A stretch of 64,000 nt of DNA from SAR86 cluster bacterium (GTDB taxonomy: Bacteria > Pseudomonadota > Gammaproteobacteria > Magnimaribacterales > AG-339-G14). This document shows, one piece after another, positions 56,971 through 63,485 of this stretch. The notes below the pieces were generated by a model that did not search any database, was not told the DNA's origin, and saw only the letters and a list, made by a program, of their open reading frames with translations. Position 1 is the stretch's first letter, and each line of letters starts with the position of its first letter. The stretch spans positions 725,288 through 789,287 of the forward strand of contig CP097974.1 of assembly GCA_023703675.1 (NCBI GenBank). The letters run 5' to 3'. The translations under genes were made by a program, and so were the position numbers.

Positions 56971-58248
56971 TTAGTTCAAAAAAGGAGACCAAGCAGGCTC
57001 TCTAATAGAGCCTAATTTTACAGGAAGCTGAAATTTAGATTTTTTATCCACAGTAATTCCAGCTAAATATCCTTGCTCATCTTTTTTGGCAGAGTAAATA
57101 ATAATATGTCCATTGGGTGAAATTGTTGGAGATTCATCTAAAGAAGTTTTTGTAACAATATTAATAAACTTATTTTTAAGATTTTTTGTCGCAATGTGAA
57201 AGACTCCATTATTCCCATGTACCAGAACAATATTATTTCCATTTGGAAAAAATCTTGATCTTGCATTGTAATTTCCTTCCATCGTCAATCTTTTGACTCT
57301 TTTATTAGAGATCTTAACTTCAAAAATCTGAGGACTTCCTGATCGATTTGAAGTAAACAATAGTCGCTTTCCATTGGGAGACCATGCCGGCTCAGTGTCG
57401 ATACCATAATGATCAGTAAGGCGAGTTATTTTTTTAGTCTTTAAATTATAAATATAAATATCTGGGTTTCCTGACATTGAGATTACAAATGCTAAATATT
57501 TAGAATCTGGAGACCAAACGGGAGCACTTTTACTCATTCCAAGAGTTGGAATTGTTTCTCTTTGGCCAGTGACAAGGTTTTGAATAAATATCTCTGCAAA
57601 ACCTTTTTCAAAAGACACGTAAGCAAGTTTTTTTCCATCCGGTGACCAATCTGGCGACATTAAGGGTGAATTAGATGAAAATAAAATTTCTTCATTTTTC
57701 CCATCTATATCAGATACGCAAATACTGTATTCCTCTGGACCAGGATTCAAAATATAAGCTAGTTTTGTATTGAATATGCCTTTCAGGCCTGTAATGCTTT
57801 CATAAACTCTATCACTTATAATTTTTGTAATGAGTTCAATTTCTTCTTTGCTGCCGTTTACGTCTCCATTTAAGACAATTCTTTCTAAATTAATGTCTGA
57901 AACAAAGTAATTAATGTTAACGGTTTTATCTAAAGAAGTAATATTTCCAAAAACAACATAGTCTGAAGAGAGAAGTTTCCAGTCTCTAAAGAAAAAATCC
58001 TCTACTTTTGTGGGATAAGAAAGCATCTTCTCGGATGGTAATAATTCAAACTCTCCAAAAAGATTTAATTTTTCGTTAATTAAATCTCTAATTTGGAAAT
58101 TAAATTTATTATTCTCAATATTCATAAAAGGTACTACGGCAATATTTGGAAGCTTTTCAGTCCCTTTGATGATTTCAATCTGCAATTTAGCTTGTACGTC
58201 GAAAGAAGCAAAATAAATTAAAACAAAAAAGGAAAATTTTACAATCAT
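56971..58248 (-). CDS. tolB: Tol-Pal periplasmic protein TolB
   Basis: Protein of 425 aa. Signal peptide (about residues 1-20), N-terminal alpha/beta domain, then a six-bladed beta-propeller with repeated PDWSPDGKKLAYVS, PVWSPDSKYLAFV and PAWSPNGKRLLFTS blades. Binds Pal and TolA. Overlaps tolA by 4 bp. Confidence 0.96.
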   Translation of the reverse strand: MIVKFSFFVLIYFASFDVQAKLQIEIIKGTEKLPNIAVVPFMNIENNKFNFQIRDLINEKLNLFGEFELLPSEKMLSYPTKVEDFFFRDWKLLSSDYVVFGNITSLDKTVNINYFVSDINLERIVLNGDVNGSKEEIELITKIISDRVYESITGLKGIFNTKLAYILNPGPEEYSICVSDIDGKNEEILFSSNSPLMSPDWSPDGKKLAYVSFEKGFAEIFIQNLVTGQRETIPTLGMSKSAPVWSPDSKYLAFVISMSGNPDIYIYNLKTKKITRLTDHYGIDTEPAWSPNGKRLLFTSNRSGSPQIFEVKISNKRVKRLTMEGNYNARSRFFPNGNNIVLVHGNNGVFHIATKNLKNKFINIVTKTSLDESPTISPNGHIIIYSAKKDEQGYLAGITVDKKSKFQLPVKLGSIREPAWSPFLN

Positions 58249-58829
58249 GACTTAAATACCAAAGTTATTTCCCTAAAGTATTTTTCAAAGTCAGTCCTTT
58301 TTATTTCCGATAACTCAGTTAAAAAATTAACTTTTGAGACTGCCTTTAAAGCAGATTCATCAAATTTTTTATTTCCACTTGAACTTATTAAAGATGATGA
58401 AAGTATTTCTCCTGAAGGAGACAAAGTAAGTTTGATTGAAGCCTGGATATTTTCATTCAAAACAGATGGTTTGTTCCACAGATTAATAAATTTTGCTTGA
58501 ATCAAATTTATAGTCTTGAGATTTTTATTTAATTCAAGATTTTCGAGGGTTTCTTTCGCTGAAATCGATAAATTAGAATTATTAGGCTGACTCTCTAAGT
58601 TTTTCTTAAAAGGAGTATTTATTTCTTTTTTTTCTAAATCTAATAAAGAAATTATTTCGGAAGAACCTTTGATTTTATTTTCTTCTCTTTTTTCTTGTAC
58701 AAAACCAATTGGAATTACTTCGAAAATCTTCTCCTTAGGGAGAAAAATTGAAAAATCTAAAGTTATGACCAGCAAAATGAGTACATGTCCTAATAGAGAG
58801 AAAACAAAACCTAACTGATAATTAATCAT
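58245..58829 (-). CDS. tolA: TolA-like protein (short form)
   Basis: Protein of 194 aa versus more than 400 in E. coli. One N-terminal membrane segment (about residues 7-29), a short polar linker in place of the long Ala/Lys-rich helical domain II, and a C-terminal TonB/TolA-type domain (IKLTLSPSGEILSSSLISSSG, DESALKAVSKV). Links TolQR to TolB-Pal. The shortened linker may mean a narrower periplasm or a different mechanism. Confidence 0.82.
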   Translation of the reverse strand: MINYQLGFVFSLLGHVLILLVITLDFSIFLPKEKIFEVIPIGFVQEKREENKIKGSSEIISLLDLEKKEINTPFKKNLESQPNNSNLSISAKETLENLELNKNLKTINLIQAKFINLWNKPSVLNENIQASIKLTLSPSGEILSSSLISSSGNKKFDESALKAVSKVNFLTELSEIKRTDFEKYFREITLVFKS

Positions 58830-59241
58830 TTTCTGGTTCTGTGAGAAAATTAATTGAGTTAGGTTTTAACTTTTGCAAAGAAGACATTAATTTTGCTACA
58901 TCATCAAAAATTACTTGAGAATCCGCTCTTATAAAAACTTCGATTTTATTACTAGTTATAATTTTTTTTAATTCGTTTTCAATTTTTTCTAAAGTTAACT
59001 CTTGATCTTTGAAAGTATCAAGCTCTAAATAATATTTGCCTGAACTATTGATAGATATTGTCAAAGAATTATTTTCAAAATCGTCTATTGGTGCTGAATC
59101 TACTTTTGGCAGATCAACATTTATTCCCTGAATAATAAAAGGCGCAGTCACCATAAATATAAGAAGTAAAACCAACATGATATCTACATAGGGAATCACA
59201 TTAATTTCGGCAAGATATTTCTTAGGGTTATTGGCTCTCAT
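58822..59241 (-). CDS. tolR: Tol-Pal proton channel subunit TolR
   Basis: Protein of 139 aa from ATG 59239-59241; a TTG one codon upstream is less likely. One membrane helix with INVIPYVDIMLVLLLIFMV (Asp essential for proton use) and a periplasmic ExbD/TolR domain. Overlaps tolQ by 14 bp and tolA by 8 bp. Confidence 0.94.
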   Translation of the reverse strand: MRANNPKKYLAEINVIPYVDIMLVLLLIFMVTAPFIIQGINVDLPKVDSAPIDDFENNSLTISINSSGKYYLELDTFKDQELTLEKIENELKKIITSNKIEVFIRADSQVIFDDVAKLMSSLQKLKPNSINFLTEPEND

Positions 59242-59890
59242 CAATTTGGTTAGAAAAAATAATAATTAATTCTTCGGAGAAATTACTGTACTCGTTTACA
59301 AAGGAATTAATCTTGTTCAAATTCCAATTGTATGAAACCAAAGCTGGAATAGCTGCAAATAAACCCAATGCAGTCGCTATTAAAGCTTCAGAAATTCCTG
59401 GTGCTACAACAGTTATTGAAACTTGCGTTAACTGAGATAAACCTCCAAAGGCATTCATGATACCCCAAACAGTGCCAAATAATCCTATATAGGGGCTCAC
59501 TGAGGCAGCGGTAGAGAGAAAAGGTAGCCTTTTAGAAAATTCTTCTTCGCATCTAGAAATAGTTATTTCTAAAATTTTTTTAATTTGATCAAGATTTGGA
59601 GGTTTTTTTGCTTTTTTACTAAATTCTTTAAATCCAGATACAAAAACTTGCTCTAAACCTATTAGTTTTTCTTTTCTCTGAAGTTTAGTAAAAATTTTTT
59701 CAAGATCGTTGTTTGTCCAAAAAATTTTATTGAATTCATATATATCTCGCTCTGCTCTCTTAAAAGTTATATATTTTTCAACAATGAACCACCAAGATAC
59801 AAAAGAGATAATTAGTAAAGTTATTAAAACAAGTTTGACAACCAAACTTGCTTGAAAAAAAAGAGAAATTAAATCTATTTCAAATGCCAT
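59228..59890 (-). CDS. tolQ: Tol-Pal proton channel subunit TolQ
   Basis: Protein of 220 aa with three membrane helices. The MotA/TolQ/ExbB block YIGLFGTVWGIMNAFGGLS followed by APGISEALIATALGLFAAIPA (about residues 133-185) is diagnostic. Powers the Tol system with the proton motive force. Its 5' end overlaps the ybgC 3' end by 11 bp. Confidence 0.96.
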   Translation of the reverse strand: MAFEIDLISLFFQASLVVKLVLITLLIISFVSWWFIVEKYITFKRAERDIYEFNKIFWTNNDLEKIFTKLQRKEKLIGLEQVFVSGFKEFSKKAKKPPNLDQIKKILEITISRCEEEFSKRLPFLSTAASVSPYIGLFGTVWGIMNAFGGLSQLTQVSITVVAPGISEALIATALGLFAAIPALVSYNWNLNKINSFVNEYSNFSEELIIIFSNQIDESQ

Positions 59891-60287
59891 TACTTTTCTC
59901 CATCATTGAATTAAGAAGCTTTGAAGGTACTTTAGTAGGTTTTTTGTTATTTGTTTCCAAACATCCACATTTGACATCAGCTGTTAAAATTTTAAGACCA
60001 TTGGAATCTAAAACCTCTTGATAAAAGGAAAAAGTGACATTTTTTACTCCAAAGATTTTACTTCTAACCTCTATTATGTCGTCTAGTTCAGCTGGTTTTA
60101 TAAAATCTAGGCTAACTTTTTTCACTACAAAAATAATATCATTATCTAAAAGTTGTTTTTGATCGTAGCCAATTTCTCGTAAGAATTCGGTTCTACCTCT
60201 TTCTAAAAACTTTAAGTAATTTGAGTTGTAAACTACTCCTTGTGCATCAGTGTCTTCAAAATAAATTCTTATTTTTAATGACGACAT
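59880..60287 (-). CDS. ybgC: Acyl-CoA thioesterase YbgC
   Basis: Protein of 135 aa from ATG 60285-60287 (MSSLKIRIYFEDTDAQGVVY). An in-frame start at 60356 would add 23 residues inside the upstream gene and is not favoured. Hotdog fold with YFEDTDAQGVVYNSNYLKF, whose Asp is catalytic. Traditional first gene of the tol-pal cluster, 2 bp after the nuclease gene. Confidence 0.93.
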   Translation of the reverse strand: MSSLKIRIYFEDTDAQGVVYNSNYLKFLERGRTEFLREIGYDQKQLLDNDIIFVVKKVSLDFIKPAELDDIIEVRSKIFGVKNVTFSFYQEVLDSNGLKILTADVKCGCLETNNKKPTKVPSKLLNSMMEKSNGI

Positions 60288-60289
60288 TA

Positions 60290-60700
60290 TTAGCTTTTGT
60301 GAGACTTTATATCTTCTTGGTAGAGAGTTTTTATTAAATAAACAAAATCCTTCCACAATAAATCACACGTATTGGAATTGTCTTTGTCTAATGAAGGATT
60401 TACAGAATACAAAGGAACTCTAACTTTAATAGGTCTATTGTTAAATTTATAAATTAAAGCAGGTAATTCTCTTTCTTTTATCGAATCCAAAACTTGATTC
60501 CACCAATTTTCAATTGGCTCATTACCTTGGCCGTAACGTTTACATTCTAGGTGCCATCTACCAAGGATTAGGTCAGGTAAAAATTTTTCTCTTGTCTGTT
60601 CTAAGATTCGTTTTAAAGGAATTGTTAATTCAAGTTCTTCGTTTAATAAATTTGCGATTTCCCGCTCAAAGGCTGCTCCTTTATTTCTAGAATTTGTCAT
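60290..60700 (-). CDS. Putative PD-(D/E)XK endonuclease in the ruvCAB slot
   Basis: Protein of 136 aa. N-terminal SRNKGAAFEREIANLL (Glu12 in the ERE helix), then PDLIL (Pro42, Asp43) and HLECKRYG (Glu52-x-Lys54), followed by a WWNQ helix. This is the spacing of PD-(D/E)XK nucleases such as Hjc-type resolvases and small phage endonucleases. It occupies the exact interval between yebC and ybgC in which gammaproteobacteria such as Pseudomonas keep ruvC-ruvA-ruvB. A Holliday-junction resolvase role is inference from fold and position; it is not homologous to RuvC, which has an RNase H fold. Confidence 0.7.
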   Translation of the reverse strand: MTNSRNKGAAFEREIANLLNEELELTIPLKRILEQTREKFLPDLILGRWHLECKRYGQGNEPIENWWNQVLDSIKERELPALIYKFNNRPIKVRVPLYSVNPSLDKDNSNTCDLLWKDFVYLIKTLYQEDIKSHKS

Positions 60701-60701
60701 T

Positions 60702-61436
60702 TTAATTTATACCCTCTAGAGAAAATTCTGCGTTAGAAAAAACATTCTGCACATCATCTAAATCCTCTAAGCTTTCAATTAGATTTAAAACTTTTTCAGT
60801 TTCTTCAGAGTTTAATTTTATACTTTGACTCGAATCCATAATAATTTCAGTTTCTATCACCTCAATACTTTCTTTGAGTAATGCATTCTTTGTATTATGA
60901 ATACTATTTGGATCGGTATAAATAATTGTTAATTCTTCATCGGATGATTCAATATCTTCTATCCCCTCTGAAATTAATAAATCTAGTAATTTTTCTTGAT
61001 TAGATTCTCTAACAATTATTTGGCCTTTTTTCTTGAACAAATAACCTACTGAACCATCAGTTCCGAGGCTGCCTCCTGCTTTTGAAAAAGCATGTCTTAT
61101 TTCAGCTACTGTGCGATTTTTATTATCAGACATTGCTTCAATAAATACCGCAACGCCATTTGGTCCGTATCCTTCGTATGAAATCTCCTCTAAATTTCCC
61201 GAATCATTGTCTCCTGAACCTCTAGCAATTGCTCTTTCAATTGTATCTTTAGGCATATTTGCCCCTAAGGCTTTATCTAGAGCTAACCTTAATCTTGGAT
61301 TATCAGCAACTTCTGAACCGCCAAGCTTTGAAGCTACCGTAAGTTCTCTGATTAACTTAGAAAAGATCTTTTGTTTCTTCTCATCTTGCCGCCCTTTTCT
61401 ATGCTTTATATTCGCCCATTTGGAATGGCCAGCCAT
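60702..61436 (-). CDS. yebC: YebC/PmpR family protein
   Basis: Protein of 244 aa. N-terminal AGHSKWANIKHRKGRQDEKK is the family signature, followed by ANMPKDTIERAIARG and EGYGPNGVAVFIEAMSDNKNRT. Family members act as transcription regulators or as translation factors that relieve ribosome stalling. Directly abuts aspS. Confidence 0.95.
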   Translation of the reverse strand: MAGHSKWANIKHRKGRQDEKKQKIFSKLIRELTVASKLGGSEVADNPRLRLALDKALGANMPKDTIERAIARGSGDNDSGNLEEISYEGYGPNGVAVFIEAMSDNKNRTVAEIRHAFSKAGGSLGTDGSVGYLFKKKGQIIVRESNQEKLLDLLISEGIEDIESSDEELTIIYTDPNSIHNTKNALLKESIEVIETEIIMDSSQSIKLNSEETEKVLNLIESLEDLDDVQNVFSNAEFSLEGIN

Positions 61437-63200
61437 TTATTCTTTCTCCTCAAATGTAGACTTAATTGCCAAATCGTCTAATTCTTCTTCCGAAACTTTA
61501 TCTGGAGCTTCAGTCATTAAACACATCGCTGATTGAGTCTTCGGGAAAGCGATGACGTCTCTTATTGAATCTTCGCCTGCCATCAGCATAACAATTCTAT
61601 CCAATCCAAAAGCAATCCCTCCATGAGGTGGGCAACCATATTCTAAGGCTTCCAGGAAAAATCCAAATTTTTTATTTGCTTCTTTCTCTGAAATTCCGAG
61701 GATAGAAAAAATCTTTTTTTGCTCCTCAATGTCATAAATACGCATTGAACCGCCTCCAAGTTCGTATCCATTTAAGACCAAGTCATAAGCCTCGGAAAGA
61801 GCCTTACTTGGATTCTTTTCTAAAATTTCTAAAGAACTTAAGGATTTTGTAAATGGGTGATGTGAAGGTGTTAAAGAGCCGTCAGGGGTCTCTTCAAATA
61901 CTGGAAAATCTGTAACCCATACTGGCTTCCAATCCGACTTATCAATCAAGCTCAAATCAAATCCGAGTTCTTGTCTTAGTGCTCCTAAAGAATCAAAAAC
62001 TATCTTTTTATCTCCAGCACCAAAGAAAACCGTATCGCCCTCTTTTAAATTTAATCTAGAAATTAATTTACTTATTTCTTCTTCTGATAAAAATTTAACT
62101 ATTGGAGATTGAAGACCATTTTTTAGATCACTTAAATCATTTATTTTTATGTAAGCCAAGCCTTTTGCTCCAAAATTTCCTACGAATTTTGTATACTGAT
62201 CAATTTGACTCCTTGAAAGCTCTTTATCAATTTTTAAAGCCAATAATTTACTTTTCTCATCATTTGCCGGATCTTTAAATACTTTAAAATCAGATTCGAA
62301 AAAAATATCTTTTACGTCCTCTAAGACGAGTGGATTCCTTAAATCCGGTTTATCTGATCCATACTTCTCCATAGCTTCTGAGTAGGATATTCTTGGAAAT
62401 TTACTTAATTTTACTCCTAATATAGCTTTAAATAGATCTACCATTAATTTTTCAGAAATACTCATTACTTCTTCACAAGAAGTAAAAGACATTTCAATAT
62501 CAATCTGAGTAAACTCTGGTTGTCTGTCCTTACGCGTGTCCTCATCTCTAAAACATCTAGCTATTTGAAAATACTTATTAAATCCACTTACCATGAGCAG
62601 TTGCTTAAAAAGTTGTGGTGATTGTGGAAGAGCATAAAATTTACCTTGGTTCACTCGACTGGGTATCAAAAAGTCTCTAGCTCCTTCTGGTGTTGCTTTG
62701 GTCATCATTGGAGTATCTATTTCAATGAATTCTTTTTTAGCTAAAAAATTTCTGATGAAATTATTTATATTTGAGCGCATAACTAAATTATTATGCATTT
62801 CAGGTCTTCTAAGGTCTAAATAACGGTATTTCAATCTAATTTCTTCTCCAGCCTTAGAATATTCATCTAACTGAAATGGAAGAGGTTTGCTTTTAGAAAA
62901 AATATTTAATTTATTTGCATAAACCTCAATTTCACCTGTTGCCATTTTTTTATTCTGAGTTCCATCAGGCCTTGCTTTAACCTTCCCAGTAATTTCGATG
63001 ACAAATTCATTCCTAATTGTTTCAGCAATATTAAAAATTTCTTTTTCATCTGGCTCAATAACTACTTGAACTATCTCTAAATCTTTTCTTAAATCTATAA
63101 ATATAACTCCACCGTGATCTCTTATTTTTTCCACCCAACCATTAATGGTAACGATTTTGTCTTTATCTGATAGGGATAAATTAAAAACTGAAGAACTCAT
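61437..63200 (-). CDS. aspS: Aspartyl-tRNA synthetase
   Basis: Protein of 587 aa. N-terminal OB-fold anticodon-binding domain (about residues 1-105), class II core with RYLDLRR, QSPQLFKQLLMVSG, CFRDEDTRKDRQPEFTQID and the C-terminal GIAFGLDRIVMLMAG. GAD insertion domain present, so bacterial type. Abuts fmdB and yebC without gaps. Confidence 0.97.
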   Translation of the reverse strand: MSSSVFNLSLSDKDKIVTINGWVEKIRDHGGVIFIDLRKDLEIVQVVIEPDEKEIFNIAETIRNEFVIEITGKVKARPDGTQNKKMATGEIEVYANKLNIFSKSKPLPFQLDEYSKAGEEIRLKYRYLDLRRPEMHNNLVMRSNINNFIRNFLAKKEFIEIDTPMMTKATPEGARDFLIPSRVNQGKFYALPQSPQLFKQLLMVSGFNKYFQIARCFRDEDTRKDRQPEFTQIDIEMSFTSCEEVMSISEKLMVDLFKAILGVKLSKFPRISYSEAMEKYGSDKPDLRNPLVLEDVKDIFFESDFKVFKDPANDEKSKLLALKIDKELSRSQIDQYTKFVGNFGAKGLAYIKINDLSDLKNGLQSPIVKFLSEEEISKLISRLNLKEGDTVFFGAGDKKIVFDSLGALRQELGFDLSLIDKSDWKPVWVTDFPVFEETPDGSLTPSHHPFTKSLSSLEILEKNPSKALSEAYDLVLNGYELGGGSMRIYDIEEQKKIFSILGISEKEANKKFGFFLEALEYGCPPHGGIAFGLDRIVMLMAGEDSIRDVIAFPKTQSAMCLMTEAPDKVSEEELDDLAIKSTFEEKE

Positions 63201-63485
63201 TTAAGTATCTGATTTTGGCTGATCTTTTTTAATAGATTTTTTGTTTTGATCCTGTTTCTTTTGATTAGGTTCTTTAGATTGTACTAAATTTTTCTTCTTT
63301 CCAGTTTTAAAGTCTGTTTCATACCAGCCTTTTCCATCAAGCCTAAAGCTAGGAGCTGATACAACTCTTTGTAAGTTAGATTTTTTTTCACAATCACATT
63401 TTATTTTTTTGTTTGCTTCAGAAATACTGAGTATTTTTTCAAACTTTTTATTGCATTTTAAACACTGAAATTCATAAATTGGCAT
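63201..63485 (-). CDS. FmdB-type zinc ribbon protein
   Basis: Protein of 94 aa. MPIYEFQCLKC with Cys8 and Cys11, paired with Cys30 and Cys32 (the usual C-x2-C/C-x1-2-C ribbon). After a short SAPSFRLDGKGWYETDF block comes a Lys/Gln-rich tail. Function unknown in the family. First gene of the aspS-tol transcription unit, with only 30 bp to the divergent proS start. Confidence 0.85.
   Translation of the reverse strand: MPIYEFQCLKCNKKFEKILSISEANKKIKCDCEKKSNLQRVVSAPSFRLDGKGWYETDFKTGKKKNLVQSKEPNQKKQDQNKKSIKKDQPKSDT

Follow-up and report, generated by a model that had tools for sequence, protein, structure and literature searches.

The stretch of DNA analysed here (the window; 64,000 nucleotides) derives from a complete, single-contig genome of a SAR86 cluster bacterium of 1.19 Mb, and includes a small nuclease gene that is tightly packed between yebC and ybgC. 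The features of the locus that are relevant for this work are as follows:

60290..60700, minus strand: gene for a PD-(D/E)XK nuclease of 136 aa with an ATG start (PDDEXK_15; predicted Hjc-like Holliday-junction resolvase)
60665..60667, minus strand: codon of the catalytic Glu12 (motif I), invariant in 88 distinct SAR86 proteins
60572..60577, minus strand: codons of Pro42-Asp43 (motif II)
60539..60547, minus strand: codons of Glu52-Cys53-Lys54 (motif III, ExK)
60702..61436, minus strand: yebC (PF01709, 8e-53; PF20772), the upstream neighbour, whose stop codon ends at 60702, leaving a 1-bp gap
61437..63485, minus strand: aspS and an fmdB-like gene, which precede yebC in this operon arrangement
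59880..60287, minus strand: ybgC thioesterase gene (PF13279, 3.6e-16), the downstream neighbour, with its ATG at 60287 and a 2-bp gap
56971..59890, minus strand: tolQ, tolR, a tolA-like gene and tolB, continuing the operon (compare the gammaproteobacterial ruvCAB-ybgC-tolQRAB)

A preliminary description of this DNA had proposed a 136-aa protein with E12, P42-D43 and E52-x-K54, separated by 1 and 2 bp from its neighbours. Both the reading frame with its motifs, in which x is Cys53, and the gaps, as deduced from the coordinates of the yebC stop and the ybgC ATG, were borne out.

In a Pfam search, the 136-aa product was assigned to PF24608 (PDDEXK_15; E 1.9e-9, 38 bits for a cut-off of 27), which bears the title 'Phage putative PDDEXK endonuclease', and a search of PHROGs retrieved PHROG_244 (E 3.3e-12), labelled 'RusA-like Holliday junction resolvase', a name that appears to describe function and not fold. 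The Pfam searches gave no match to the profiles of RuvC (PF02075) or RecU, nor to that of Hjc (PF01870) up to E 10, and the comparison by sequence profile was also negative for RusA (PF05866); NCBIfam has no model for this protein, and no homologue was found among plasmid sequences. Residues R5, K7, G8, E12, R13, R31, Q35, P42 and D43, as well as E52, K54, Y56, W66, W67 and Q69, are intact in all 88 distinct SAR86 homologues. The gene is under purifying selection, with a median dN/dS of 0.067 that falls among the values for surrounding genes (yebC, 0.032; tolQ, 0.051; ybgC, 0.106).

The gene order fmdB-aspS-yebC-nuclease-ybgC-tolQ-tolR-tolB is held in 123 SAR86 loci from the four sampled families, scored as far as each locus reaches, and the nuclease is separated from the adjacent genes by only a few bases; the loci from family f4, which are part of these 123, gave no match with the ybgC query. 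No methylase or phage gene was seen beside the nuclease within the operon, either in the window or in the SAR86 loci. Among outgroup Gammaproteobacteria, yebC adjoins ruvC in 16 of 20 RuvC loci, and in 14 of the 20 ruvCAB is followed by ybgC and/or tolQ, so the nuclease does occupy the position that ruvCAB has in relatives, as had been claimed. YebC was itself predicted to be linked to RuvABC (PMC3403352).

We found the nuclease in 177 of the 199 genomes of the order, including 38 of the 40 good ones. A true absence from the other two good genomes (G046 and G054) was rejected, because their contigs stop in or just past yebC. An intact ruvABC elsewhere in the genome would have spoken against the replacement put forward in the preliminary description, and there was none: RuvC (PF02075) was detected in none of the 199 SAR86-order genomes, including that of the window, as compared with 343 of 369 genomes in the class sample, and RuvB did not reach the TIGR00635 cut-off in any of the 199. 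A concatenated query with the Escherichia coli proteins RuvA, RuvB, RuvC, YqgF, RadA, RusA, YraN, RecQ and TopB recovered RuvA, RuvB, RuvC, RadA, YqgF and YraN from all three control genomes. With the same query, RuvA, RadA, RusA and YraN were not found in seven SAR86 genomes, among them that of the window; these seven yielded YqgF, short P-loop cross-hits and, in most cases, a partial match to a type IA topoisomerase that is probably TopA. The recA gene, in turn, lies around 4 kb upstream of the nuclease on the same strand, just beyond the window.

An AlphaFold2 model of the SAR86 nuclease, built from 32 SAR86 sequences (pLDDT 89, pTM 0.85), was compared with solved structures. The nine best VIA-align alignments with PDB entries all corresponded to Hjc, Hje or ST1444 resolvases, with Z 10.2 and rmsd 2.7 over 102 residues for 1gef and Z 10.0 for 1ob8; beyond these Hjc-type proteins came the SPARDA nuclease (Z 7.7) and, lower, RecU (Z 6.3–6.5). 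The first Foldseek match was also 1ob8, though with an E value of only 1.1e-3, and T7 endonuclease I was not among the structural matches listed, which excludes nothing. The SAR86 profile matched no resolvase chain among PDB sequences, and its matches to L25 and Bud20 were rejected as spurious. In profile-profile comparisons, the SAR86 profile matched that of a phage Hjc_15-6-type group with a probability of 97.8% (E 1.2e-12). This group includes the Hjc of Thermus phage TSP4, which matches 7bgs (Hjc_15-6) at 1.5e-100 and whose catalytic residues align with the E, D, E and K of the SAR86 nuclease; Hjc_15-6, for its part, cleaves Holliday junctions (PMC8805305). The Hjc-like catalytic layout recognised earlier is thus borne out, with a predicted fold that is nearest to Hjc and Hje. 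Its tie to proven resolvases, however, passes through the modelled fold and the profile comparison and not through direct sequence matches, which counts against the assignment.

A second lineage without RuvC offers a parallel case. Two RuvC-less genomes of another gammaproteobacterial family (f42; 1.1 Mb) contain a PDDEXK_15 protein of 104 aa between yebC and ybgC (L181:1477-1791 and L223:2269-2583), which, in a tree of 100 sequences, belongs to a different phage clade from the SAR86 type (support 100/97). The f42 nuclease has a direct sequence match to Hjc_15-6 (E 2e-4) and its score with PF01870, 18.5 bits, is under the cut-off of 21.1; the best structural match of its model (pLDDT 73) was 7bgs (Z 9.4, rmsd 1.8). 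The two subtypes are found at the same genome place, before an exonuclease-SSB-helicase module, in the related Roseobacter phages CRP-811 (SAR86-like; L174:6001-6417) and CRP-831 (f42-like; L347:2992-3327), which suggests that they do the same job. A concatenated marker tree placed SAR86 and f42 together, albeit with weak support (82/96) and strong composition bias, so that the tree does not distinguish two separate disappearances of ruvCAB from a single one plus an exchange of the nuclease; the SAR86 and f42 nucleases are nevertheless likely to be two independent captures. Separately, genomes G201 and G221 (97–99% complete) matched neither RuvC nor yebC, and G270 is a further genome without RuvC.

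These data bear on whether the SAR86 nuclease acts on Holliday junctions or is a structure-specific enzyme for other branched DNA, such as flaps, stalled forks, or mismatch or replication intermediates, in which case SAR86 would lack dedicated junction resolution. The substrates of PD-(D/E)XK enzymes are indeed varied, a few reduced genomes are known to have lost RuvAB (PMC3403352) and several SAR86 genera also seem to be devoid of RecG (see below). However, Hjc and Hje rank above all other PD-(D/E)XK folds as structural neighbours, the gene fills the ruvCAB slot, the RuvC-less f42 has a recognisable Hjc_15-6-like protein in that same slot, and RecA is kept; we therefore regard a role restricted to other branched substrates as unlikely.

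The nearest annotated relatives of the SAR86 nuclease are phage genes. Those in Roseobacter phages adjoin genes for an exonuclease VIII-like protein and a ssDNA-binding protein and, in CRP-811 and CRP-831, also a RepA-type helicase gene; likewise, the neighbours of relatives in IMG/VR include exonuclease VIII, a Sak4-like annealing protein and DNA polymerase, together with many others without annotation. In two phages, a gene of another putative family of phage nucleases, PDDEXK_14 (PHROG_7141), sits next to the PDDEXK_15 gene (L303:6642-7064 and L173:6395-6844). In the 100-sequence tree mentioned above, the SAR86 proteins group in a single clade (100/100) nested among viral sequences; a few viral contigs (L133, L135 and L269-L276), whose nucleases are 59–64% identical to that of the window, belong to this clade as well. 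The idea that IMG/VR contigs L133-L139 and L269-L276 are mislabelled pieces of SAR86 chromosome was rejected, as they do not carry aspS, yebC or ybgC. Two of the nuclease-bearing viral contigs were scanned, and both contained phage structural genes and an endolysin gene; one of them, L135, also has CHASE2/adenylate-cyclase-like and curlin-repeat-like genes, named by eye. L133, L135 and L269-L276 are possibly SAR86 phages and, because the two contigs examined within the SAR86 nuclease clade are phages, genes have probably passed between SAR86 and phages, in one direction or the other.

This phage kinship, with closest homologues in phages and near relatives in viral contigs that carry structural genes and endolysin, could also be expected of a prophage remnant, or of an anti-phage or restriction nuclease, that sits in the operon by chance. 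Against this, the nuclease is a core gene, nearly universal in the order, with constant synteny and gaps of a few bases; its dN/dS is low, its motifs are preserved in every distinct protein, and the operon contains no neighbouring methylase or phage gene, all of which makes a chance resident very improbable.

The preliminary description had also left branch migration to RecG or a similar enzyme. This is compatible with the genome of the window, which does contain RecG, at a site away from the nuclease locus, but fails to extend to four SAR86 genera from which RecG is apparently missing. In a search of 61 genomes for RecG and RecA, no RecG was among the matches listed for 11 genomes from these four genera of family f3, though RecA was found; the matches listed reach approximately E 1e-60, and the RecG matches of other genomes were below 1e-150. 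The 11 genomes are G002, G006 (single-contig), G010, G014, G018, G022, G026, G042, G050, G054 and G058. It thus appears that four genera of f3 have lost RecG besides RuvABC, and in them the resolvase may act without any known motor. That the resolvase instead works beside an unrecognised RuvAB-like motor, the RuvABC pathway being replaced only in part, could be argued from the weak RuvB scores of several AAA+ proteins, but the three of these matches that we read were rejected as RuvB, being DnaX, ClpX and ClpA by sequence, none attains the TIGR00635 cut-off and the seven genomes searched yielded no RuvA, so that we give a hidden motor hardly any credence.

We consider it probable that a captured phage Hjc-type PD-(D/E)XK nuclease, small and metal-dependent, is the chromosomal Holliday-junction resolvase of SAR86, in replacement of the whole RuvABC. 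The proposal that it substitutes for RuvC is supported by its slot, by the absence of RuvC and by the predicted Hjc/Hje-like fold, and its scope turns out to be wider than first described, because the entire RuvABC is displaced. According to this scheme, the ancestor of the order would have lost ruvC-ruvA-ruvB and retained, at that position of the operon, an archaeal-type (Hjc) resolvase from a phage. RecA would make the junctions, and a dimer of the nuclease, to judge from Hjc, Hje and Hjc_15-6, would bind the four-way junctions and nick two opposing strands by means of Mg2+ held by E12, D43 and E52, with K54 in an assisting role. In the absence of RuvAB, RecG would move the junction in those genomes that retain it, or else the junction would be cut where it stands. 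We infer that the nuclease is the main or only junction resolvase of these bacteria, although the retained YqgF may contribute as a junction nuclease; the functional diversity of PD-(D/E)XK folds counts against this assignment. In a more complete picture, which our data somewhat favour, a single Hjc-type nuclease captured from a phage would handle Holliday junctions in an order devoid of RuvABC, no known motor would be left in the genera that lack RecG, given that RadA was not found in the seven SAR86 genomes searched, and the operon slot would be occupied by two branches of the phage family; the presence of these two branches in the slot of SAR86 and f42 may reflect independent capture or later exchange.

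Almost all bacteria have RuvABC. Bacteria without RuvAB amount to less than 2% and are mostly parasites (PMC3403352). By contrast, an abundant, free-living ocean group appears here to have swapped the whole RuvABC for a single small gene of phages, located within the same operon. The Hjc-type phage resolvases and RecU had already shown that a substitution of this sort is possible. Nevertheless, in the open-licence literature that we searched, we found neither papers linking SAR86 with ruvC or Holliday junctions, nor any whole free-living order with an in situ replacement of RuvABC by a phage Hjc-type nuclease. SAR86 offers a way to test whether bacterial recombination can manage with a resolvase that has no branch-migration motor, and also points to a likely function for the phage family concerned, of which Pfam says no more than 'putative PDDEXK endonuclease'.

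The SAR86 nuclease shares with RuvABC the slot between yebC and ybgC and, presumably, the task, and differs from it in having no match to RuvC and in occurring where RuvA, RuvB and RuvC are absent. RusA, also from phages, is a resolvase that can take the place of RuvABC; PHROG_244 is labelled after it, yet the SAR86 nuclease does not match the RusA Pfam profile. RecU, the RuvC analogue of Firmicutes and Mollicutes, is likewise a PD-(D/E)XK resolvase in the role of RuvC, although its fold match to the SAR86 model (Z 6.3–6.5) is weaker than that of Hjc and Hje. This known substitution of RuvC by RecU keeps RuvAB, with which RecU works from a gene located away from ruvAB (PMC3403352); SAR86 differs from this precedent because RuvAB is gone too, and the nuclease gene is in the ruvCAB slot itself. 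The archaeal Hjc and Hje (PF01870; 1gef, 1ob8, 2wcw and 2wiw) are the best matches among solved structures, with Z of 8.6–10.2 in the first eight alignments, and have the same catalytic layout, whereas the SAR86 protein has a bacterial host, no PF01870 match and only 13–23% identity to them. Finally, Hjc_15-6 from Thermus phage Tth15-6 (PDB 7bgs and 7bnx; PMC8805305), with relatives in Thermus, Geobacillus and Roseobacter phages, is similar in being a small phage nuclease with an E...D...ExK arrangement and an archaeal-type fold. It is, however, the product of a gene from a phage of a thermophile, with E-SD-EVK as catalytic signature and the RxPLSG loop of its group, unlike the SAR86 nuclease, which is encoded by a bacterial core gene and displays E-PD-ECK, a motif loop R-ILEQ-TREK-PD and a WWxQ-YKF region.
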